Of a stretch of 64,000 nt of DNA, positions 21,977 to 33,678 are shown in pieces. The position numbers and the translations under genes are program-made. Positions within the stretch are counted from its first letter, which is position 1, and every line of letters starts with the position of its first letter. Source of the stretch: Nocardioides sp. CER19 (lineage in GTDB: Bacteria > Actinomycetota > Actinomycetes > Propionibacteriales > Nocardioidaceae); NCBI RefSeq assembly GCF_029846275.1, contig NZ_JARVWS010000002.1, forward strand, positions 310,001 to 374,000. Direction: 5' to 3'. Below the pieces are notes generated by a model. That model was not told the DNA's origin. It saw nothing but the letters and a program-made list of their open reading frames with translations, and searched no databases.

Positions 21977-23987
21977 GCGGCGGCCGGTGGCCGGCGGCCC
22001 GCGGGTGGTGGTGTGGCGCCAGGTCGCCCTCGGACTGGCCCTCTTCGCCTGCTACCTGCTGGTCGACGCGCTCGCGTCCGACGCCCGCCGCCTCGCCGCT
22101 GACCGGCACGGTCGGGACGTGTGGCGGCTGGAGCGGTGGCTCCACCTCGACCTCGTCCGGCCGCTCAACGACTGGCTGGCCGGTCGCGGCTGGCTGCAGA
22201 CGGCGGCGAACTACGAGTACGCGTTCATGTACCTCGTCACCGCCCTCGGGACCATCGTGTGGCTGCTCTGGCGGCACCCGGAGGCGTGGCCCCGGGCGCG
22301 CACCAGCTTCGTGCTCGTCAACCTCGTCGGCATCGTCTGCTTCTGGCTCTACCCGGTCACCCCGCCGCGGCTGCTGCCGGGCTCGCCGGTCACCGACACC
22401 GTCACGACCGGCCAGACCTGGGGGTCCTGGGGCTCGAGCCTCGTCTCCGGGGCCAACCAGCTCGCCGCGATGCCGTCCCTGCACTTCGCGTGGGCGCTCT
22501 GGGTGAGCCTGGCGCTGGCGTCGGTGTCCGCATCGATGCGGCTGCAGGCCGTCAGCGCGCTGCACGTCGCCCTGACGCTCTTCGTCATCGTCGCGACCGC
22601 CAACCACTACGTGCTCGACGCCGTGGTGGCCGCCGTCCTCGTGGTGGTCGCAGACCTCGTCGCCCGCCGCGTCCACGATCCGGCGGTGGTCGGCTCGGCC
22701 GACGCGTTCTTCCTCCACGTCGAGGGCACCGGCGCGCCCCAGACGGTCGGTGGCCTGGTGCTGCTGGGCCGGATTCCCGGCGAGCCCGACGGCCCGACGC
22801 TCGCGGCCGTCCGCGACCTCGTCAGGGGCGAGCTGCCCGGGCTGCCGCGCTTCACCCAGCGGGTGACCACGTCCCGGTGGCGACGCCCCCGCTGGGTCGA
22901 CGCGCCCGACCTCGACTGGGACTGGCACGTCCCCGAGGTCACCGTTCCCGACCGGGCCGGCATGGACCGCCTGGTGGCCGACATCGCGGAGCAGCCCCTG
23001 CCGCGGGACCGGCCCCTGTGGCGCTTCCTGGTCGTCAGGTCGCCGGAGCGCTCCGGCGTGCTGCTGCTCATGCACCACGCCGTCGCCGACGGCATCGGCA
23101 CCGTGATCCAGGCGCTCAACCTGCTCCGCCCGCGGATCGCGCTCCCGGAGCCGCCGGCCGCGCCCTCGTCCCTCGCGATGGCGGCGGCGACGGTGGTCGG
23201 CGTCGGCCAGCTGGCGCTCGACGGCGGCGTGTCCGAGTCGCTCGGTCCCACAGGCGAGGCGCGGGACTTCGCGACCGACGGCATCCCGCTCGCCGAGCTC
23301 AAGGCGACCGGCCACCGGGTCACCGACGTCCTGCTGGCGGTGACGGCCGGTGCCCTCGCCGACATCGGCTCGCCGCCGGAGCGCCTGCGGATCGCCGTCC
23401 CGCTGATGGTGCGCGCACCGGGCGACGGGGCCGAGGGCAACGTCACCGCCGCGGTCATGGTCGACGTACGGTCCCGGGCGGCGCCGACCTCCGAGCTCCT
23501 CGCCGGGCTGAGCACGTCGCGGCTGCGCAGCCCGAGCCGGGCCCTCGCCAGCCGGTTCGTCATGGCCCGGCTGATCCGCGTCCTGCCCGAGCCGCTGATG
23601 GGCTGGTTCGCCCGCACCGTCTACGGGCGGCGCTTCTTCCACGCGATCGTGTCGAACATGCCCGGACCCGACGTCCCACTCACCGTGGCGGAGGCGCCGA
23701 TGGACGCGGTCTACCCCGTGCTGCCGCTGGCGCCCGGCGTACCGGTCGTGCTCGGCGGGCTGAGCTGGAACGGCGTGCTCGGGCTGGGCCTCGCCACCGC
23801 GCCCGAGTCGTACGACGCCCGGGCGGTCCTGGCCGCCATGCGCCGCCGCCTCGCGGAGCTGCGTGAGGACGCCGCCCCGGTCACCCGACCTGCGACCAGC
23901 CCAGCGCGAGGAGGAGCCGCAGCCGCTCCCGCGGCGAGTCGAGCCGATCGCCGAACAGCTCTCGAAGGCGGCCCAGACGGTAGCTGA
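21969..23987 (+). CDS. PAP2-like (AUR1-type) domain fused to WS/DGAT-type O-acyltransferase
   Basis: 672 aa. The first 240 residues hold about six helices and PAP2/inositol-phosphorylceramide-synthase-like marks: WLYPVTPPRLLPG, MPSLHFAWALW (catalytic His) and TANHYVLDAV (His/Asp). Residues 250-640 look like a wax-ester synthase/diacylglycerol acyltransferase: LMHHAVADGIG with the HHxxxDG site (His369, His370, Asp374, Gly375), VSNMPGP near the C-terminal third, and the usual closing GGLSWNGVLGLGL. One half could dephosphorylate or transfer a lipid headgroup and the other acylate the product. The last 107 bases overlap the convergent PucR gene, an unusually long overlap. Confidence 0.85.
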   Translation: MAERRPVAGGPRVVVWRQVALGLALFACYLLVDALASDARRLAADRHGRDVWRLERWLHLDLVRPLNDWLAGRGWLQTAANYEYAFMYLVTALGTIVWLLWRHPEAWPRARTSFVLVNLVGIVCFWLYPVTPPRLLPGSPVTDTVTTGQTWGSWGSSLVSGANQLAAMPSLHFAWALWVSLALASVSASMRLQAVSALHVALTLFVIVATANHYVLDAVVAAVLVVVADLVARRVHDPAVVGSADAFFLHVEGTGAPQTVGGLVLLGRIPGEPDGPTLAAVRDLVRGELPGLPRFTQRVTTSRWRRPRWVDAPDLDWDWHVPEVTVPDRAGMDRLVADIAEQPLPRDRPLWRFLVVRSPERSGVLLLMHHAVADGIGTVIQALNLLRPRIALPEPPAAPSSLAMAAATVVGVGQLALDGGVSESLGPTGEARDFATDGIPLAELKATGHRVTDVLLAVTAGALADIGSPPERLRIAVPLMVRAPGDGAEGNVTAAVMVDVRSRAAPTSELLAGLSTSRLRSPSRALASRFVMARLIRVLPEPLMGWFARTVYGRRFFHAIVSNMPGPDVPLTVAEAPMDAVYPVLPLAPGVPVVLGGLSWNGVLGLGLATAPESYDARAVLAAMRRRLAELREDAAPVTRPATSPARGGAAAAPAASRADRRTALEGGPDGS

Positions 23988-25059
23988 CCGTCTGCGGGTG
24001 CACCCCCAGCTGCTCGGCCATCGCCGCCCGGTCGCCCTGATGGACGAGCCACGCCGTCAGCGTCTGGGTCAGCCGCGCCCGGGCGCCGTCCGAGAGGCCG
24101 TCCAGCGGCGCGAGCACCCGCTCCCCGAGGAACGTGAGCATGCCGCCGTCGCGGTGCACGATGACGGTGTCGAGGTGGTCATCGACGAAGACGGGGTCGT
24201 CGGCGACCACGCCCGACGAGCGCAGGCGCAGGGTGATCCGCGCGCCGGTCAGCGTCCGCCCCAGCAGGCCGACCGGCACGTTGACGCCGACGACGGCGCC
24301 GGTCCCGGCGAGCTCCTGCGCGAGGAGCGCTCGGCGGGCACCGCCCGGGTCGGGCACGACCGCGCCGGTGAGGTCGACCTGGCGCACGGGCAGCGCGTAG
24401 GAGTCGAGCCGCGACATCAGCTCCGGCACGCCCGGCCCCGACCCGTCCACCAGCACGATCGCCGCGGTCGCCGGCAGCGGCCATTTCGCGCGGGCGGCCG
24501 CCGACCGGATCGCCTCCATGCTGGCGCGCTCGGACAGGAGCAACCCGACCAGCTCGTCGCGGTGCCGGTCACGGTCGCGCGAGTCCTCCTGCTGGGCGAG
24601 CACGAAGCCGCGGGCCGAGGCCTGGGAGAGCCGGCTGACGAAGTCGAAGACGGCCTCGGCCAGCGCGCCGACGACCTCGCGGGAGACGTCGACCTCGTCG
24701 GCGGTGGTCGCGACGTAGCGCCACGCGACGCGGGCGCCGAGCTGGTAGGCGGTGAGCAGCCGGGTGAGGTCGTGGCCGACCTCCCACTGTCGCCGCCCGA
24801 TCTGCTCGAACAGGGACTGCACGCCCGGCTCGCTCGCCTCCTGGTCGGACGCGCCGGGCGGCCGGGTCGCGAGCAGGAGCAACCGGTGCACGAAGAGGCC
24901 GGCGCCCTCCTGCACGCTGCCGGTGTCGCCGTCGAGGAACTCGGCGTAGTCGGGCCAGCCGTCGGCCAGCAGGTCGCGCACCTCGCCGAGCAGCTCGGGC
25001 AGCCGCTCCGTCAGGCGCCGCTCGAGCAGCTCCACGGAAGCCGCTTCCGAAATTGTCAC
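23881..25059 (-). CDS. PucR/CdaR-family transcriptional regulator
   Basis: 392 aa from a GTG without an obvious Shine-Dalgarno. Residues about 40-180 are helical, the middle (about 190-310) resembles the CdaR GGDEF-like domain, and the C-terminus is the PucR winged HTH: QLGVHPQTVSYRLGRLRELFG (about 345-365). It is divergent from the hopanoid operon with a 77-base gap that contains an inverted repeat, so it is a good candidate regulator of hopanoid synthesis. PucR-type proteins are usually activators responding to small metabolites; the ligand is unknown. Confidence 0.85.
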   Translation of the reverse strand: MTISEAASVELLERRLTERLPELLGEVRDLLADGWPDYAEFLDGDTGSVQEGAGLFVHRLLLLATRPPGASDQEASEPGVQSLFEQIGRRQWEVGHDLTRLLTAYQLGARVAWRYVATTADEVDVSREVVGALAEAVFDFVSRLSQASARGFVLAQQEDSRDRDRHRDELVGLLLSERASMEAIRSAAARAKWPLPATAAIVLVDGSGPGVPELMSRLDSYALPVRQVDLTGAVVPDPGGARRALLAQELAGTGAVVGVNVPVGLLGRTLTGARITLRLRSSGVVADDPVFVDDHLDTVIVHRDGGMLTFLGERVLAPLDGLSDGARARLTQTLTAWLVHQGDRAAMAEQLGVHPQTVSYRLGRLRELFGDRLDSPRERLRLLLALGWSQVG

Positions 25060-25136: not shown

Positions 25137-25988
25137 ATGGCCGCAGGCGGGGCGGTGGGAGACGTCGACGTACGCGCCGGGGAGGAGAACTTCCCGGTGG
25201 CGCTGCGCGTGCTGCCGGCCCGGCACCGGCGGCACCTCGTGGCGGTCTACGGCTACGCCCGGATGGTCGACGAGCTCGGGGACTCCTACGCCGGCGACCG
25301 GGTCGCGGCGCTCGAGCGGGTCCGCACCCAGGTGGACGACCTCTGGGCCGGTCGGACCGTGGACGACCCCGTGCTTCGGCGGCTGGCCGCCACGGTGGTC
25401 GAGTGCGGGCTGGGTCGCGAGCCGTTCGTCGACCTGATCGAGGCCAACCTCCTCGACCAGCGGGTCGTGGCCTACGCCAGCTTCGAGGACCTGCTCGGCT
25501 ACTGCCGGCTCTCGGCGAACCCGGTCGGGCGGATCGTGCTCGAGGTCTTCGGACAGTCGACGCCCGCCCGGGTCGCGCTCTCGGACGACGTGTGCACGGG
25601 CCTGCAGCTCCTCGAGCACTGGCAGGACGTCGGCGAGGACCGGCGAGCCGGTCGGGTCTACCTCCCCGAGCACGACATGGCGGCGTACGGCGTCTCGGCG
25701 GCCGACCTCGACGCGCCCGTCGCGTCGCCCGCCCTGCGCGAGCTGCTGCTCGTCGAGACCGAGCGCGCGGCCGCGCTGCTCGGCTCGGGCGACCCGCTGG
25801 TCCGGCAGCTGCGTGGGTGGGCCCGACTGGCCGTCGCCGGCTTCGTCGCGGGCGGCGAGGCGACCGCCGCCGCGCTGCGCCGCAGCGGCGGCGACGTCCT
25901 GAGCGTCACGCCGCGTCCGCGCAAGGCCGAGACCCTCGCCCGGCTGCTGCGCGGTGTCGTGTGGCAGCCGCCCGGGGGAGCGCGATGA
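25137..25988 (+). CDS. hpnC: hydroxysqualene synthase HpnC
   Basis: 283 aa. It belongs to the squalene/phytoene synthase fold: [13 protein letters not shown] (first Asp-rich region, residues about 37-49) and [20 protein letters not shown] (second). It is the first of two such genes, as in hpnC-hpnD clusters. HpnC converts presqualene diphosphate to hydroxysqualene. It is the first gene of the operon; its TGA overlaps the hpnD ATG. A good Shine-Dalgarno is not evident (only GGGG two bases before ATG). Confidence 0.92.
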
Positions 25989-26872
25989 GAGGGGAGTCGA
26001 TGACCGGAGCGCTCGGCGAGGCCTACGCCGCCTGCGAGCAGATCACCCGCACCGAGGCCGGGAACTTCTACTACGGCATCCGGCTGCTGCCGCCGGAGAA
26101 GCGCAGCGCCCTCTGCGCCGTCTACGCCCTCGCCCGGCGCATCGACGACATCGGGGACGGCGACCTGCCGCGCGCGGAGAAGGTGACCGAGCTGGACCGG
26201 GTGCGTGCCGACCTCGCCGCGCTCTCGGCCGGCCACCGCGGGAGCGACCCGGTCCTGGTCGCGCTCGCGGATGCGGCCGAGCGCTACCCGATCCCCCTCG
26301 ATGCGTTCGGCGAGCTCGTCGACGGCGTCGTCATGGACCTGGGCGACGTCAGGGTCAAGGACGTCGACGAGCTGATCGGCTACTGCCGCCATGTCGCCGG
26401 TTCGATCGGCCGGCTCTGCCTGTCGATCTTCGGCGCGCAACGGTCCGACCCCCGGCTGGAGCTCTTCGCCGACCAGCTCGGCATCGCCCTGCAGCAGACC
26501 AACATCCTGCGCGACGTCCGCGAGGACCTCGGCAACGGTCGCGTCTACCTGCCGGCCGACGAGCTCCAGCGCTTCGGCGTCGAGCTGCGGACCGACGCCG
26601 CCGGGGACCTCGACGACCCCGAGGGTCACCTCGCGGGCTACCTGCGGCACGCGGCCGCCCGGGCCGACGATTGGTACGCGCTCGGGCTGCGCCTGGTGCC
26701 GCACCTCGACCGCCGCAGCGCCGCGTGCTGCCGGGCGATGGCGGGCATCTACCGGCACCTCAACCGCGTCATCGGAGCCGACCCGGTCCAGGTCTACGAC
26801 AAGCGGCTGCGGCTCTCGACCGCACACAAGGCAGGCGTCGCGCTGGCGTCGCTGGCGGGGGTGCGCGGATGA
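25985..26872 (+). CDS. hpnD: presqualene diphosphate synthase HpnD
   Basis: 295 aa from ATG 25985; an ATG 15 bases later is also preceded by GGGGAG. Trans-prenyl synthase marks are complete: [24 protein letters not shown] (first Asp motif), [12 protein letters not shown] and [21 protein letters not shown] (second Asp motif). HpnD condenses two farnesyl diphosphates to presqualene diphosphate, which HpnC then uses. It overlaps both neighbours by four bases. Confidence 0.93.
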
Positions 26873-28209
26873 CGGCCGCGGGGGCGAGCCGGGAGCAGCC
26901 GCGGGTCGCCGTCGTCGGTGGTGGGCTGGCGGGGATCACGGCGGCGCTCCTGCTGGCGGACGCGGGGCACCGGGTCGTGCTGCACGAGGCACGCCCGCGG
27001 CTCGGCGGCCTCACCCACTCGTTCCGCCGCGACGGGCCCGGGGGAACGATGTGGGTCGACAACGGCCAGCACGTCTTCCTGCGCTGCTGCACGTCCTACC
27101 GTGCGCTCCTCGACCGGCTCGGCAGCACGGGCGGGACGATCCTGCAGCCGCGGCTCGACGTCGTCGTGCGCAGCGAGACGCGGCCCGCGGTCGGCCGGCT
27201 GCGGCGGACGGGCCTCCCGGCACCCTTGCACCTCGCCGCGACGCTGGCCCGCTACCGCTGGCTCACGCCCGGAGACCGCGCCCGGGTCGTCCCGGCCGCT
27301 CTCGCGCTCGGCAGGGTCGACCGTGAGGACCCGGCGACCGACGAGGTGTCCTTCGGGGACTGGCTCACCCGCCATGGCCAGTCCCCGAAGGCTGTGGAGG
27401 CGGTCTGGGACCTGATCGGCGTCGCCACGCTCAACGCACCCGCCGAGCGGGCCAGCCTCGCGCTGGCCGCGACCGTCTTCCAGCTCGGGCTGCTCGACCG
27501 GGCCGACGCCGCCGACATCGGCTGGGCCGACGTACCGCTCCAGCTGCTGCACGGCGACGCCGCCCAGCGTGCGCTCGCCGAGGTGGGGGTGGAGGTGCGG
27601 CTCGGTGCGCGGATCGCCGACCTCGACGGGCTCCACGCGGCCGCGGACCACGTCGTCCTCGCCGTCCCGCCGACCGAGGCGCAGCGGCTGGCCGGGGCCG
27701 CCGTGATCGCGCCCGACGACTGGGCCGCCGAGCTCGGCAGCAGTCCCATCGTCAACCTCCACCTCGTCGTGGACCGGCCGGTGCTGGAGCACGACTTCGT
27801 CGCGGCGGTCGACGGGCCGCTGCAGTGGGTCTTCGACCGGACCGCGCCCTCGGGGCTCGCGACGGGCCAGTACCTCGCCGTCTCGCTCTCGGCCGCCGAC
27901 GCCTTGATCGACGTCCCCGTGGCGGAGCTGAAGAGCCGGTTCTGGCCACACCTCGTCGGCCTGCTGCCCGGGCTCACCCGCGCCGAGGTCATCGACTTCT
28001 TCGTGACCCGCGAGCGGCACGCGACGTTCCGTCCCGCCCCGGGCAGCGCCCGGTTCCGGCCGGGCACCCGCACGCACCGGCCGGACCTGCACCTGGCCGG
28101 CGCCTACACCGCCACCGGCTGGCCGGCGACGATGGAGGGTGCGGTCCGCAGCGGCGAGGCCGCAGCCGGCGCGGTGCTCAGCCAGACCCCCAGGAGGGCT
28201 GCCGCATGA
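26869..28209 (+). CDS. hpnE: hydroxysqualene dehydroxylase HpnE
   Basis: 446 aa. FAD-binding N-terminus [19 protein letters not shown] (about residues 13-31) with the second Gly-rich segment RLGGLTHSF, and a C-terminal FAD motif [21 protein letters not shown]. It belongs to the phytoene-desaturase-like amine oxidase family, and its position after hpnC-hpnD identifies it as HpnE, which reduces hydroxysqualene to squalene. ATGA overlaps lie at both ends. Confidence 0.92.
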
Positions 28210-29219
28210 CCGTGACCGTGGAATCTCTGGGACGCTACCGGGAGCTGTTCGAGCCGGGCCTGCGCGCTGCCGTCGATCGGCTCGACCCGCTCACCCGCCG
28301 GGTGGTCGCCTACCACCTCGGGTGGTGCGACCCCGAGGGTCGGCCGGTCGACGCCAACCCCGGCAAGGCGGTACGGCCCACGTTGGCGCTGCTCGTCGCC
28401 GAGGCGCTGACCGGGGCGCCGGCCGCGGCGGCGCCGGGCGCCGTGGCGGTCGAGCTGGTCCACAACTTCTCGCTCGTCCACGACGACCTCATGGACCGCG
28501 ACGCCGAGCGTCGGCACCGTCCGACCGTCTGGGCGCTGTGGGGCGACTCCACCGCGGTGCTCGCCGGCGACGCGATGCTGTCGCTCGCGCACGAGGTGCT
28601 GACGGAGTCGGAGTCGCCGTACGCCGGTGCCGCCGGGCGCGCCCTGGCCGCGGCGACCCGCGAGCTCATCCGCGGCCAGGTGGAGGACCTCGCGTTCGAG
28701 GCCCGCGACGACGTGACGCTCGCGGAGTGCGAGGCGATGGCCGCCGGCAAGACCGGCGCGCTGCTCGGCGTGAGCGCCGCCATCGGCGCGATCCTCGCCG
28801 GTGCAGGCCCGAGCACCGTCGAGGCGTTCGACACCTTCGGCCGGGACGTCGGCCTGGCCTTCCAGCTCGTCGACGACCTGCTCGGCATCTGGGGCGCGCC
28901 CGAGCGGACCGGAAAACCCGTGCACTCCGACCTCGCGGCCCGCAAGAAGACGCTCCCCGTCGCCTGGTCCTTGACGCGCGGCGGCCGGGCGGGGGAGGAC
29001 CTCCGGGACTGGTTCGCGACCGCGGTCGAGCCGGGCGAGGCGTCGCTGCGCGAGGCGGCCGACCTCGTCGAGGCGGCGGGCGGGCGGGCCTGGGCGCAGC
29101 GCTGCGCCCAGGAGCGCGTGCGCCGCGCCCTGGCCGCTCTCGAGCCGCTCGACCTGCCCGCCGAGAACCACCAGACCCTCGCCGACCTGGCGCGCTTCGT
29201 GACGGAGAGGACGACATGA
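28206..29219 (+). CDS. polyprenyl (farnesyl) diphosphate synthase
   Basis: 337 aa. First Asp-rich motif HDDLMD at residues 92-97 (two residues between the Asp pairs) and second LVDDLLG at 221-227; Arg-containing KAVRPTLALL and GQVEDLAFE lie between. It is a trans-isoprenyl diphosphate synthase that probably makes the C15 farnesyl diphosphate for HpnD, judging from its place in the operon; product length cannot be fixed from sequence alone. Coupled to hpnE and shc by ATGA overlaps. Confidence 0.92.
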   Translation: MTVTVESLGRYRELFEPGLRAAVDRLDPLTRRVVAYHLGWCDPEGRPVDANPGKAVRPTLALLVAEALTGAPAAAAPGAVAVELVHNFSLVHDDLMDRDAERRHRPTVWALWGDSTAVLAGDAMLSLAHEVLTESESPYAGAAGRALAAATRELIRGQVEDLAFEARDDVTLAECEAMAAGKTGALLGVSAAIGAILAGAGPSTVEAFDTFGRDVGLAFQLVDDLLGIWGAPERTGKPVHSDLAARKKTLPVAWSLTRGGRAGEDLRDWFATAVEPGEASLREAADLVEAAGGRAWAQRCAQERVRRALAALEPLDLPAENHQTLADLARFVTERTT

Positions 29220-31195
29220 CCGCGAACCCGCACGCCCCCGAGCCGGTGCTCATCGCGAGCACGCTCCCGGTTCCTCCCCCCTCCGGCGCACCGGACACCG
29301 CCGCCGCCCGCGCCACGCTCGACGCGGCGGTCGTCCACCTCCGCTCGCTCCAGCACCCTGACGGCTGGTGGAAGGGCGACCTGGCCACCAACGTGACGAT
29401 GGACGCCGAGGACCTGATGCTGCGGACGTTCCTCCGCGTCGCCACGCCGGAGACCACCGAGCAGACGGCCCGCTGGATCCGCTCGCAACAACGGTCCGAC
29501 GGGACATGGGCGCTCTACCCCGGCGGACCGGGTGACCTCTCCACGACCGTCGAGGCGTGGGTGGCGCTCCGCATCGCCGGTGACCCCGCTGAGTCCGTCC
29601 ACCTGCAGAAGGCGGCCGCCTACATCCGCGACAGCGGCGGGCTCGAGAGCGCGCGCGTCTTCACCCACCTGTGGCTCGCGCTCTTCGGCCTGTGGCGCTG
29701 GGACGACTGCCCCACGCTGCCCCCGGAGCTGATCCTGCTGCCCAAGCGGGCGCCGCTCAACATCTACAACTGGGGGTGCTGGGCCAGGCAGACCATCGTG
29801 CCGCTCACCATCGTCAGCTCGCGGCGGCCGGTCCGGCAGGTCGGCATCCGCGTCGACGAGCTGCGAAGCGGCGCCGAACCGCCGCGGACCGACCCGCTGT
29901 GGACGCTCGCCGGAGGCTTCCAGCGACTCGACCGCGGGCTGCGCGCCTTCGGCAAGCTGCTGCCCAGCAGCCGCAACCCGGTGCGGAGGATCGCCGAGCG
30001 GCAGGCGGCCGAGTGGATCCTGGCCCGGCAGGAGGCAGACGGCGGCTGGGGCGGCATCCAGCCACCGTGGGTCTACTCCCTGTTGGCCCTCCACGTGCTG
30101 GGCTACCCGGTCGACCACCCCGCCATGGCGGCCGGGATCCGGGGTCTCGACGGCTTCACCGTGCACGCCGAGACCGACGAGGGCCCGGTCCGCTGGCTCG
30201 AGGCCTGCCAGTCTCCGGTGTGGGACACGGGACTGGCCGTGACCGCGCTGCTCGAGGCGGGCGTCCCCGGCGACGACCCCGCCGTGCTCACCGCAGCCGG
30301 CTGGCTCCTCGACGAGCAGATCACCGCGGGCGGGGACTGGCAGGTCCGCCGCCCCGAGCTCCCCTCCGGCGGTTGGGCGTTCGAGTTCGCCAACGACGCC
30401 TATCCCGACACCGACGACACGGCCGAGATCGTGATGGCGCTGCGACGCGTCCGCCACCCCGACTGCGAGCGACTCAACAAGGCGGTCGACCGGGCCATCG
30501 CCTGGACGGTGGGCATGCAGTCCGCCGACGGCGGCTGGGGCGCCTTCGACGCGGACAACACGCACGAGCTGCCGCTCGCCCTGCCGTTCTGCGACTTCGG
30601 CGCCGTCATCGACCCGCCGTCCGCCGACGTCACCGCGCACGTCGTCGAGATGATGGCCACCGCCGGGCTGGTCGATCGGCCCGAGTGCCGCCGCGGCGTC
30701 GCGTGGCTGCTCGACGCCCAGGAGCCCGACGGCTCCTGGTTCGGCCGCTGGGGCGCCCACCACGTCTACGGCACCGGAGCCGTCGTACCCGCACTGGTGG
30801 CCGCGGGCATCCCCGCGCACGACCCCCACGTCCGCTGGGCCACCGAGTGGCTGCGCCGGCACCAGAACGACGACGGCGGCTGGGGCGAGGACCTCCGGTC
30901 CTACGACGACCCCGACTGGGTCGGCCGCGGGGAGTCGACCCCGTCGCAGACCGCGTGGGCGCTGCTCGCCCTGCTGGCGGCCGGCGACTCACCCGACGCG
31001 GTCGAGCGCGGCATCCGGTACCTGGTCAGCACCCAGCTGCCCGACGGGTCGTGGGCGGAGGAGCTCTACACCGGGACCGGCTTCCCGGGTGACTTCTACA
31101 TCGGCTACGGGCTCTACCGGCAGGTCTTCCCGCTCTGGGCGCTGGGCCGCTACCTCGCCGGTCGCGCCGACTCCGGTGGAGGCGAGCGCCCGTGA
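29216..31195 (+). CDS. shc: squalene-hopene cyclase
   Basis: 659 aa, typical for SHC. The catalytic DTDDTAE motif starts at Asp398. Several QW repeats are visible, such as QEADGGWGG, QSADGGWGAFD, QEPDGSWFGRW and QNDDGGWGED, which staple the alpha/alpha barrels together. C-terminal TGFPGDFYIGYGLYRQVFPLWALGRY is also diagnostic. The enzyme cyclises squalene to hopene/hopanol at the membrane. Its TGA overlaps the next GTG. Confidence 0.96.
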   Translation: MTANPHAPEPVLIASTLPVPPPSGAPDTAAARATLDAAVVHLRSLQHPDGWWKGDLATNVTMDAEDLMLRTFLRVATPETTEQTARWIRSQQRSDGTWALYPGGPGDLSTTVEAWVALRIAGDPAESVHLQKAAAYIRDSGGLESARVFTHLWLALFGLWRWDDCPTLPPELILLPKRAPLNIYNWGCWARQTIVPLTIVSSRRPVRQVGIRVDELRSGAEPPRTDPLWTLAGGFQRLDRGLRAFGKLLPSSRNPVRRIAERQAAEWILARQEADGGWGGIQPPWVYSLLALHVLGYPVDHPAMAAGIRGLDGFTVHAETDEGPVRWLEACQSPVWDTGLAVTALLEAGVPGDDPAVLTAAGWLLDEQITAGGDWQVRRPELPSGGWAFEFANDAYPDTDDTAEIVMALRRVRHPDCERLNKAVDRAIAWTVGMQSADGGWGAFDADNTHELPLALPFCDFGAVIDPPSADVTAHVVEMMATAGLVDRPECRRGVAWLLDAQEPDGSWFGRWGAHHVYGTGAVVPALVAAGIPAHDPHVRWATEWLRRHQNDDGGWGEDLRSYDDPDWVGRGESTPSQTAWALLALLAAGDSPDAVERGIRYLVSTQLPDGSWAEELYTGTGFPGDFYIGYGLYRQVFPLWALGRYLAGRADSGGGERP

Positions 31196-32658
31196 GCTCC
31201 GGTCGCGTGCTCACCCCGCTGCGCAGCGAGTGGCTGGCGGTGTCCCGGCTGCTGTCCCAGCCGGCGATCAGGTCGGGGCGGTCGCGGGGCGCCAGCTCCG
31301 ACGGCCCGGTGCTGGTCGCGGGCGTGGCGGGCGCGCTGGCGCCGGAGCTGCGCGCGGGCGACTTCGTCGTCGCGTCGGCCGTGCTCACGCCATCGGGGGA
31401 GCGCACCGACCTCCCCGTCGCCCCGCTCCTCGCCGGGGCGCTGCGCCGGGCCGGCCTCGACGCCCACATCGGGCCGGTCGTCACGACCGAGCGCATCGTC
31501 GACGACCCGGCCGGGCGCGCCCTGCTCGCCGAGAGCGGTGCGGTGGCGGTCGACACCGAGTCTGCCCTGCTGGTCGCGGGTGCCCCGACCGGCCAGGCGG
31601 CCGTCGTACGCGCCATCGTGGACACGCCCGAGGCGCGGCTGCTCCGCCCCGGCATGCTCGTGCGCGGTGTCGGGGCACTGGCCGCGCTGCGCCGAGCGGC
31701 GCCGGTGCTCGACGCCTGGCAGCGCGCCACCGGCCCGCGGGAGGTCGTGCTCGCCTCGCCGCGATCGTTCTGCGCGGGGGTCGAGCGCGCGATCGAGATC
31801 GTCGACCGCTCGCTCGAGCGGTTCGGCAGCCCGGTCTACGTCCGTCGCCAGATCGTGCACAACCGCCACGTGGTGGCGGCGCTGGAGGGCAAGGGCGCGG
31901 TCTTCGTCGACGAGGTCGAGGAGGTCCCCGAGGGCGCGACGGTGGTCCTCGCCGCGCACGGCGTCGCACCGACCGTCCGCCGCGACGCGGTCGACCGGGG
32001 GCTCCAGGTGGTGGACGCGACCTGCCCGCTGGTGAGCAAGGTGCACACCGAGGTGCGGCGCTTCGCCGGCCAGGGCTACACGGTCTTCCTCATCGGGCAC
32101 GCCGACCACGAGGAGGTCGTCGGGACGCTGGGCGAGTCGCCGGAGCACGTCGTGGTCGTCAGCGACGCGGAGGCGGCGCGGACGGTCCGCGCCGCCGACC
32201 CCGACAAGGTCTCCTACGTCATGCAGACGACGCTGGCCGTCGAGGACGCCGAGCGGACGGCGGCCGTCCTCCGCGAGCGCTTCCCCGCTCTGCGCGCGCC
32301 GCGCAGGGACGACATCTGCTACGCCACGAGCAACCGCCAGGACGCCGTACGCGAGGTCGCCCGCGGCGCCGACGTGGTCATCGTGCTCGGTTCGACGAAC
32401 TCGTCGAACTCCCAGCGGCTCGTCGAGGTCGCGGCGGCCGAGGGTACGCCGGCCCACCTGGTCGACGACCTCGCCGAGGTCGAGCTCTCCTGGCTGGCCG
32501 GCACCCGCCGCGTCGGCCTCACCGCCGGGGCCTCCGCGCCGCCGCGGCTGGTCGACGAGGTCGTCGCCGGGCTCTCCGGCCTGGGCCACGTCGAGGTCAG
32601 GGAGGCGCACGTCGCCTCCGAGAACGTGCGTTTCACGCTGCCCCGCGAGGTGGGCTGA
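31192..32658 (+). CDS. ispH: fusion of HpnG-like nucleosidase and IspH (HMBPP reductase)
   Basis: 488 aa from GTG 31192. Residues 38-175 are a shortened nucleoside phosphorylase/MTA-SAH nucleosidase-like domain (VLVAGVAGAL, GDFVVASAVLT, VAVDTESALLV with the Asp/Glu pair 121/123, RAIVDTPEARLL), as in HpnG, which releases adenine from adenosylhopane. Residues 183-485 are a full IspH: Fe-S cysteines Cys194 (SFCAGVERA), Cys278 (ATCPLV) and Cys376 (DICYATSNRQ), plus His224, His256, GHADHEEVVG with the proton-donor Glu region, and STNSSNSQRL. IspH makes IPP and DMAPP, the first precursors of this pathway. One polypeptide thus carries an early and a late step. Confidence 0.9.
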   Translation: MSSGRVLTPLRSEWLAVSRLLSQPAIRSGRSRGASSDGPVLVAGVAGALAPELRAGDFVVASAVLTPSGERTDLPVAPLLAGALRRAGLDAHIGPVVTTERIVDDPAGRALLAESGAVAVDTESALLVAGAPTGQAAVVRAIVDTPEARLLRPGMLVRGVGALAALRRAAPVLDAWQRATGPREVVLASPRSFCAGVERAIEIVDRSLERFGSPVYVRRQIVHNRHVVAALEGKGAVFVDEVEEVPEGATVVLAAHGVAPTVRRDAVDRGLQVVDATCPLVSKVHTEVRRFAGQGYTVFLIGHADHEEVVGTLGESPEHVVVVSDAEAARTVRAADPDKVSYVMQTTLAVEDAERTAAVLRERFPALRAPRRDDICYATSNRQDAVREVARGADVVIVLGSTNSSNSQRLVEVAAAEGTPAHLVDDLAEVELSWLAGTRRVGLTAGASAPPRLVDEVVAGLSGLGHVEVREAHVASENVRFTLPREVG

Positions 32659-32673
32659 GGGAAAGGATCTTCC

Positions 32674-33678
32674 ATGTCGATGCCGTTGCGACAGTCGCTG
32701 CAGGTCGGTGCCTACCTGGCCAAGCAGAAGCTCCAGGGGAAGGAGAAGTTCCCGATCCTCGTCGAGCTCGAGCCGCTGTTCGCCTGCAACCTCAAGTGCG
32801 CGGGGTGCGGGAAGATCCAGCACCCGGCGTCGGTCCTCAAGCAGCGGATGCCGGTGGAGCAGGCGGTCGGGGCCGTCGTGGAGTCGGGGGCGCCGATGGT
32901 CTCCATCGCGGGCGGCGAGCCGCTCATGCACCCGCAGGTCGACGAGATCGTCCGGCAGCTGCTCGACCTCGGGAAGGTGGTGTTCCTGTGCACCAACGCG
33001 GTGCTGATGCCCAAGCACCTGCACCGCTTCCAGCCGCACCGGAACTTCTCGTGGATGGTCCACATCGACGGGCTGCGCGAGCGCCACGACGCCTCGGTCA
33101 GCAAGGACGGCGTCTTCGACCAGGCCGTGGCGGCCATCAAGCTGGCCCAGTCGCAGGGCTTCCGGGTGATGACCAACACGACGTTCTTCGACGTCGACAC
33201 GCCCCAGGACGTCATCGAGGTGCTCGACTACCTCAACGACCAGCTGAAGGTCGACAACATGCAGATCTCGCCGGGCTTCGCCTACGAGAAGGCGCCCGAC
33301 CAGGAGCACTGGCTGGGCCCCGAGGACACCCGGGCGCTGTTCGCCACGGCGTTCGCCGACGGTCGTCGGAAGAAGTGGCGGCTCAACCACTCGCCGCTGT
33401 TCCTCGACTTCCTCGAGGGCAAGGTCGACTTCGAGTGCACCGCGTGGGCCATCCCGTCGTACTCGCTCAAGGGGTGGCAGAGGCCGTGCTACCTCATGGA
33501 GGACGGCTACGCGTCGAGCTACCAGGAGCTGCTCGACGAGACCGACTGGGACAAGTACGGCCGCGGCAAGGACCCGCGCTGCGCCAACTGCATGGCGCAC
33601 TGCGGCTACGAGCCGACCGCCGTCGTCGCCACCATGAGCTCGCTGCGGGAGACGATGCGCGCCGCAGTCGCTTCCTGA
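32674..33678 (+). CDS. hpnH: adenosyl-hopene transferase HpnH (radical SAM)
   Basis: 334 aa, with AAAGGA upstream of ATG. The radical-SAM cysteines are Cys38, Cys42 and Cys45 (CNLKCAGC, CxxxCxxC), followed by SIAGGEPLMHP for SAM binding. A C-terminal cysteine cluster (RCANCMAHCGYEP) lies at about 305-320, as in HpnH proteins. It joins the 5'-deoxyadenosyl group to hopene, giving adenosylhopane, the substrate of the HpnG-like domain encoded just upstream. It is the last gene of the operon, ahead of a strong hairpin. Confidence 0.94.
   Translation: MSMPLRQSLQVGAYLAKQKLQGKEKFPILVELEPLFACNLKCAGCGKIQHPASVLKQRMPVEQAVGAVVESGAPMVSIAGGEPLMHPQVDEIVRQLLDLGKVVFLCTNAVLMPKHLHRFQPHRNFSWMVHIDGLRERHDASVSKDGVFDQAVAAIKLAQSQGFRVMTNTTFFDVDTPQDVIEVLDYLNDQLKVDNMQISPGFAYEKAPDQEHWLGPEDTRALFATAFADGRRKKWRLNHSPLFLDFLEGKVDFECTAWAIPSYSLKGWQRPCYLMEDGYASSYQELLDETDWDKYGRGKDPRCANCMAHCGYEPTAVVATMSSLRETMRAAVAS

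Follow-up and report, generated by a model that had tools for sequence, protein, structure and literature searches.

An HpnG-like nucleosidase fused to IspH in a hopanoid operon of Nocardioides sp. CER19

Why should an enzyme that supplies isoprenoid building blocks share one polypeptide with an enzyme that acts on the hopanoid side chain? The question is raised by a hopanoid operon of Nocardioides sp. CER19, located in a window of 64,000 nucleotides (positions 310,001 to 374,000 of contig NZ_JARVWS010000002.1, assembly GCF_029846275.1). Coordinates given without a locus or contig name are positions in this window, on the forward strand unless stated otherwise. At 31192-32658, one uninterrupted reading frame of 488 amino acids encodes an HpnG-like nucleosidase domain followed by IspH. 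The frame starts with GTG, shares 4 bp with the shc stop and occupies the penultimate place of the order hpnC-hpnD-hpnE-pps-shc-[fusion]-hpnH. An HpnG-like/IspH fusion within a hopanoid operon had been proposed from the sequence alone, and the single frame, the domain matches and the operon genes bear this out. We suggest with good confidence, based on sequence comparison and structure models, that the product is a single bifunctional polypeptide combining an HpnG-type adenosylhopane nucleosidase with an operon-dedicated IspH paralogue.

The joint between the two domains is strongly conserved. From W176 to C194, it contains no insertion or deletion in any of 21 aligned sequences, which comprise the window protein and 20 of the 24 fusion-like loci (L009-L032). 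Left out of this alignment were L022 for its chimeric 5' end, L029 for a broken frame, and both L031 and L032 for a degenerate domain. The frames of L029 and L022 do appear broken or chimeric, but the window shows no sign of two genes joined artificially by a frameshift or missed stop. The identical joint is shared by all 21 aligned sequences and recurs in 47 genomes of the class and in three same-genus relatives, which rules out an annotation or assembly artefact with near certainty. A separate internal start for IspH was likewise ruled out by surveying start codons and Shine-Dalgarno motifs in the 21 fusions. No internal start is conserved. In 8 of 21, the 30 codons preceding the first Cys contain no start codon, and a Shine-Dalgarno-like motif precedes this Cys in two. 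At L022 (6683-8242, Amycolatopsis rhizosphaerae), the nucleosidase domain has its first 80 residues replaced by the frame of another gene and the locus shows no shc match, which could reflect a deletion or an assembly error.

The C-terminal domain (residues 183-488; 31738..32655) is a complete IspH. Pfam LYTB (PF02401) matches residues 185-461 with 310.5 bits (E 1e-92; cut-off 24.5), and the IspH model TIGR00216 reaches 308.4 bits against a cut-off of 187.85. Among narrower IspH submodels, NF002190 is passed (394.9 bits, cut-off 389), with NF002189 (416.7, cut-off 444) and NF002188 (397.8, cut-off 420) missed. In the model of the whole protein, residues 183-479 match Escherichia coli IspH with a Z score of 37.2 and 47% identity. 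The Fe-S ligands Cys194 (31771..31773), Cys278 (32023..32025) and Cys376 (32317..32319), corresponding to E. coli Cys12, Cys96 and Cys197, are invariant in the 21 aligned sequences, as predicted originally for a complete IspH with all three cysteines. Equally invariant are H223, H256, H306, E308, T346, S404, S405, N406 and S448. We take these 12 positions to be the residues of the Fe-S and (E)-4-hydroxy-3-methylbut-2-enyl diphosphate (HMBPP) site of E. coli IspH, as mapped by alignment.

The N-terminal domain (residues 1-180; 31192..31731) is predicted to adopt a fold of the 5'-methylthioadenosine/S-adenosylhomocysteine nucleosidase (MTA/SAH nucleosidase, MTAN) type. PNP_UDP_1 (PF01048) matches residues 40-130 with 30.6 bits against a cut-off of 25.1, and both this match and the predicted fold place the domain in the phosphorylase-nucleosidase superfamily. 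AlphaFold models have a mean predicted local distance difference test (pLDDT) score of 89.9 for the whole protein and 94.5 for the N-terminal domain alone. Within the whole model, the match of residues 1-180 to MTA/SAH nucleosidases runs from one end to the other, with Z scores of 18.7-20.7 and 13-24% identity among the VIA-align rows shown. The isolated domain matches MTANs in Foldseek with an E value of 9e-11. Given the end-to-end matches, the fold appears complete, with some 50 fewer loop residues than MTAN. The original prediction had set its limits at residues 38-175, which is too short, since the first strand lies within residues 1-37, as does the invariant Glu13. It had also considered the domain shortened and perhaps regulatory, a view that the predicted complete fold, the retained catalytic-type residues and the low ratios of nonsynonymous to synonymous substitution (dN/dS) do not bear out.

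The positions expected to serve catalysis are conserved throughout the fusions. In the structural alignment, the first residue of the model pairs with about residue 0 of MTAN, and Glu13 (31228..31230) occupies an N-terminal position that presumably corresponds to MTAN Glu12, with the MTAN numbering as in PDB titles of mutants. HMMER pairs D121-x-E123 with the AVEME motif of MTANs and R140...D144 with their RAISD motif. Asp121-Thr122-Glu123 (31552..31560) would thus be the counterpart of MTAN Glu-Met-Glu174, and Arg140...Asp144 (31609..31623) that of MTAN Arg...Asp197. E13, D121, E123, R140 and D144 are invariant across the 21 aligned fusions. They also belong to 14 columns that are invariant in 11 sequences, namely the window domain, seven fusion domains and three stand-alone HpnGs (L097, L122, L089), so that the active-site residues are shared with HpnG. 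Among 60 distinct N-terminal domains, a count that includes L022, L029, L031 and L032, E13 is kept in 56 and each of the other four residues in 57. The exceptions are the truncated chimera L022 (E13 only), the degenerate L032, and L031 and L172, which are paralogues outside hopanoid operons. Gaps of L031 and L032 in this count are columns beyond the local alignment, and both sequences were read directly. In 12 pairwise comparisons, dN/dS was 0.10-0.35 for the N-terminal domain and 0.09-0.32 for IspH. Purifying selection on the N-terminal domain is thus much like that on IspH. Residue conservation and low dN/dS together argue that the domain is neither decaying nor merely passive.

Operon context points to the same reaction. 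The place of the fusion between shc and hpnH is the site of a stand-alone hpnG at L097 (shc-hpnG-hpnH), and the N-terminal domain aligns with the L097 HpnG along its length at 34% identity. Location next to hpnH within a hopanoid operon is the context of HpnG. According to a passage in PMC12583986, HpnH adds an adenosyl group to diploptene and HpnG removes the adenine, with the enzyme making bacteriohopanetetrol from ribosylhopane still described there as unassigned. We infer that residues 1-180 act as the HpnG of the operon and would release adenine and ribosylhopane from adenosylhopane, which HpnH makes, by cleaving its N-glycosidic bond. Glu13, Glu123 and Asp144 would serve cleavage in the manner of MTA/SAH nucleosidases. 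The nucleosidase domain is probably dimeric and would carry the IspH units along. The C-terminal domain would act as a second, operon-dedicated IspH converting HMBPP to isopentenyl diphosphate and dimethylallyl diphosphate, so that C5 supply could rise together with hopanoid synthesis.

How secure is the nucleosidase function? Several observations weigh against the bifunctional reading. The NCBIfam HpnG model (TIGR03468) matches residues 43-147 with 55.5 bits, far under its cut-off of 187.1, which is why we label the domain HpnG-like. The window domain is among the shortest, and the loop or helix after residue 28 is trimmed to SGRSR, where most relatives have TGMGP and extra residues. Kribbella L015 is trimmed likewise (TGRSR), and the same-genus loci L213-L215 have TGRSR or TGRAG. 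The within-domain pLDDT minimum falls at this trimmed loop (75 in the whole model, 79 in the domain alone). At L032 (7001-8476), the catalytic positions of a fusion changed from D-T/M-E to D-R-D and Asp144 was lost, indicating that the domain can degenerate within an intact hopanoid operon. The low score, the trimmed loop here and in Kribbella, and the degeneration of L032 in a genome with a separate HpnG-like gene could mean that the N-terminal domain no longer catalyses and survives as a regulatory or scaffolding relic, which senses adenosylhopane or adenine or tunes IspH while another enzyme removes the adenine. Yet the catalytic-type residues are present in 56-57 of 60 distinct domains and selection is strong, and on these grounds a regulatory N-terminal domain was rejected; we consider it unlikely. 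The three stand-alone HpnGs likewise miss the TIGR03468 cut-off (77.5 bits for the Streptomyces-type protein, 124.9 and 166.2 bits for the others). About 180 amino acids appear viable for a nucleosidase fold, because the PRK05634-type nucleosidase of the same genome matches a model of 185 positions over no more than 176 residues.

A search for another enzyme that could remove the adenine yielded no better HpnG candidate in the own genome. Besides the fusion, the nucleosidase-family genes that exceed the Pfam cut-off encode a purine-nucleoside phosphorylase and the PRK05634 nucleosidase. Both also pass the cut-offs of their own families, leaving the fusion as the only HpnG-like candidate found in this genome. 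A weak fifth PF01048 match (C1:932105-932269, E 0.023) lies below the cut-off. The HpnG model matches in 23 of the 24 genomes with fusion-like loci, the one without a match being G318, where the domain is decayed. The fusion frame is the best match in 21 of the 23. The exceptions are G312, where the competing match resembles a uridine/purine phosphorylase, and G319, the genome of L032. In G319, a separate gene on another contig (L126:1459-2736) has HpnG as its best NCBIfam model (83 bits). Its product retains both the DxE and the RxxxD motif, and no hopanoid gene was noted beside it. G319 thus carries both a degenerate fusion and a separate HpnG-like nucleosidase, and it is possible, judging by sequence, that the separate gene replaced the function of the degenerate domain.

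The IspH half raises the converse doubt, namely whether only the nucleosidase matters for hopanoids and IspH is a redundant passenger fixed by a merger of neighbouring genes. As the original prediction had suggested checking, a second, stand-alone ispH does exist in the genome (C2:831545-832378), passing the IspH models with 573 bits and sharing 53% identity with the fused copy. At least one further ispH is carried by each of the 24 genomes with fusion-like loci. The fused IspH therefore need not be essential, which is a further point against the bifunctional reading. Streptomyces-type operons manage without ispH at the same place. At L050, L052, L069 and L081, recorded as two Pseudomonadota, one uncultured bacterium and one Marinimicrobia, ispH already adjoins hpnH, with an unfused hpnG just past hpnH on the opposite strand, so that a merger of neighbours is conceivable. 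A passage in PMC5462960 likewise reports hpnH, shc and ispH as clustered in acidobacteria, with the same text elsewhere giving ispA for that cluster. Against a passenger role, however, the IspH half has an invariant set of active-site residues and a dN/dS as low as that of the N-terminal domain, and terpene operons keep this IspH and lose the nucleosidase. In the draft genome G298, the sole further ispH that was found belongs to the terpene-operon type. We regard a passenger IspH as improbable, marginally more so than a relic N-terminal domain.

If both halves of the bifunctional protein are active, what might the fusion achieve? The original prediction held that it links supply and use within one operon. 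This is reasonable as co-expression. The reactions of IspH and HpnG are non-consecutive, with many steps lying between them, which makes substrate channelling unlikely. The fusion would ensure one-to-one co-expression and possibly co-localisation of the two activities. Parts of a study of Frankia alni (PMC10252897) report FRAAL1432, a squalene-hopene cyclase, and FRAAL1433, annotated as IspH, which bear adjacent tags and increased 4.23 and 5.12 fold in propionate-fed compared to fumarate-fed nitrogen-fixing cells. The co-abundance lends indirect support to co-expression. In a far more speculative scenario, which we consider very improbable, HpnG-IspH and HpnH form one Fe-S complex building the C35 side chain, in which the IspH cluster takes part in reducing ribosylhopane to bacteriohopanetetrol. 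Such a complex would then have left its trace in the way ispH repeatedly lies close to hpnH and hpnG in unrelated bacteria.

The fused IspHs belong to a clade of single origin. Trees were built after removing identical rows, with 105 and 42 rows chosen from 143 distinct IspH rows and the window. In the careful 42-row tree, 26 fusion rows and six others form one clade (support 100/99). These six IspHs come from non-hopanoid loci and group together (97/88) within the fusions, with support of 98/94 at the 28-row fork and a weaker 94/81 at the 30-row fork. The quick 105-row tree recovers the same nesting with Shimodaira-Hasegawa-like approximate likelihood ratio test (SH-aLRT) values of 80-95. The simplest reading of these trees would be one fusion event followed by one loss of the nucleosidase domain. 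The six nested IspHs adjoin polyprenyl synthase, dxs or ispG. Recognizable but degenerate N-terminal domains without catalytic residues remain at L031 and L172, and no N-terminal domain match was found at L033, L034, L154 and L178. The degenerate or absent domains in these six indicate that the domain is kept with hopanoid genes and was lost in these other operons. L032 looked like a counter-example to retention in hopanoid operons, but its genome has the separate HpnG-like gene. Family 2B encapsulin shell genes lie beside the nested IspH at L031, L217 (which holds L172) and L219 (which holds L178), and L219 additionally encodes a geranyl-diphosphate methyltransferase and a terpene cyclase. 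The fusion-clade IspHs at L031, L217, L219, L033, L034 and L218 (which holds L154) could form a module dedicated to supplying encapsulin terpene systems with C5 units. Neither IspH nor the string "methylbut" was found in the text of an encapsulin survey (PMC8346489).

The fusion is not unique to this genome, as a survey of its distribution, another check proposed originally, made clear. In a class sample of 394 genomes, a junction profile detected it in 47 (E <= 1e-90), covering 15 of 137 genera, and in a phylum sample of 396 it was detected in five, the own genome among them (E <= 1e-85). Squalene-hopene cyclase is present in 90 of the 394 class genomes (E <= 1e-60), and all 47 fusion genomes fall within these 90. 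The 43 cyclase genomes without the fusion comprise 36 of one genus (g4), which we take to be Streptomyces, and seven others. Outside this genus, the fusion accompanies the cyclase in 47 of 54 genomes. Eight loci of g4 (L097-L103, L107) have the order shc-hpnG-hpnH without ispH. Within the genus of the window, shc occurs in 4 of 147 genomes including the own, and the three other carriers all bear the fusion. Two of these relatives have the whole operon with the same flanking genes, and the third is represented by a 3.8-kb contig. The sparse presence of shc in the genus may reflect either widespread loss or a gain in one subclade.

Compared to known systems, the window domain shares with HpnG (TIGR03468) the operon place, the 14 invariant residues and the presumed reaction. 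It differs by its fusion to IspH, its length of about 180 amino acids compared to 213-228 in the three HpnGs examined, and its score below the cut-off. The Streptomyces coelicolor counterpart is orf14, a gene mentioned in PMC10301674 in text citing earlier work. MTANs (PDB 3bl6, 1jys) have the same fold and catalytic positions, and differ by their low identity to the window domain, their longer loops and the presumed substrate. The orf14 product of S. coelicolor reportedly acts as a nucleosidase. The C-terminal half shares the complete domain, the three Fe-S cysteines and the substrate-site residues with IspH/LytB HMBPP reductases (TIGR00216), and differs as a paralogue of its own clade with an N-terminal enzyme domain. 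Fusions in the methylerythritol phosphate (MEP) and hopanoid pathways are already known. Passages in the respective papers describe IspDF, which likewise joins non-consecutive steps (PMC13001223), and HpnCD (PMC5462960), and NCBIfam NF000907 represents a fusion of IspH with ribosomal protein S1. The window fusion differs from all three by its pairing of an MEP enzyme with one for hopanoid tailoring. No mention of an HpnG-IspH fusion was found in the open-access literature searched, a scope outside which most subscription journals fall, and the pairing appears undescribed there. A single gene would allow joint testing of a first-stage enzyme for C5 supply and a late-stage enzyme for the hopanoid side chain. 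The fusion also points to a hopanoid-dedicated IspH paralogue, which databases likely label as plain IspH. The path of this IspH lineage into encapsulin and terpene operons, with the nucleosidase shed, could serve as a natural control for domain function.

The remaining operon genes are well defined. hpnC (25137..25988; TIGR03464, 285 bits), hpnD (25985..26872; TIGR03465, 301.6 bits), hpnE (26869..28209; TIGR03467, 386 bits), shc for squalene-hopene cyclase (29216..31195; TIGR01507, 754.5 bits) and hpnH for the radical S-adenosylmethionine adenosylhopane synthase (32674..33678; TIGR03470, 498 bits) each pass their own NCBIfam model. The polyprenyl diphosphate synthase (28206..29219) reaches the Pfam cut-off (PF00348, 182 bits) and none of the listed NCBIfam models. 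Its top-scoring model is a family 2 encapsulin cargo polyprenyl transferase (NF041169, 427.9 bits, cut-off 450). Divergent from hpnC, a gene on the reverse strand (23881-25059) encodes a protein with a C-terminus that, by eye, resembles a PucR/CdaR-type helix-turn-helix, making it a candidate hopanoid regulator. Relatives of this gene (59-60%) flank the hopanoid operon also in two same-genus genomes.

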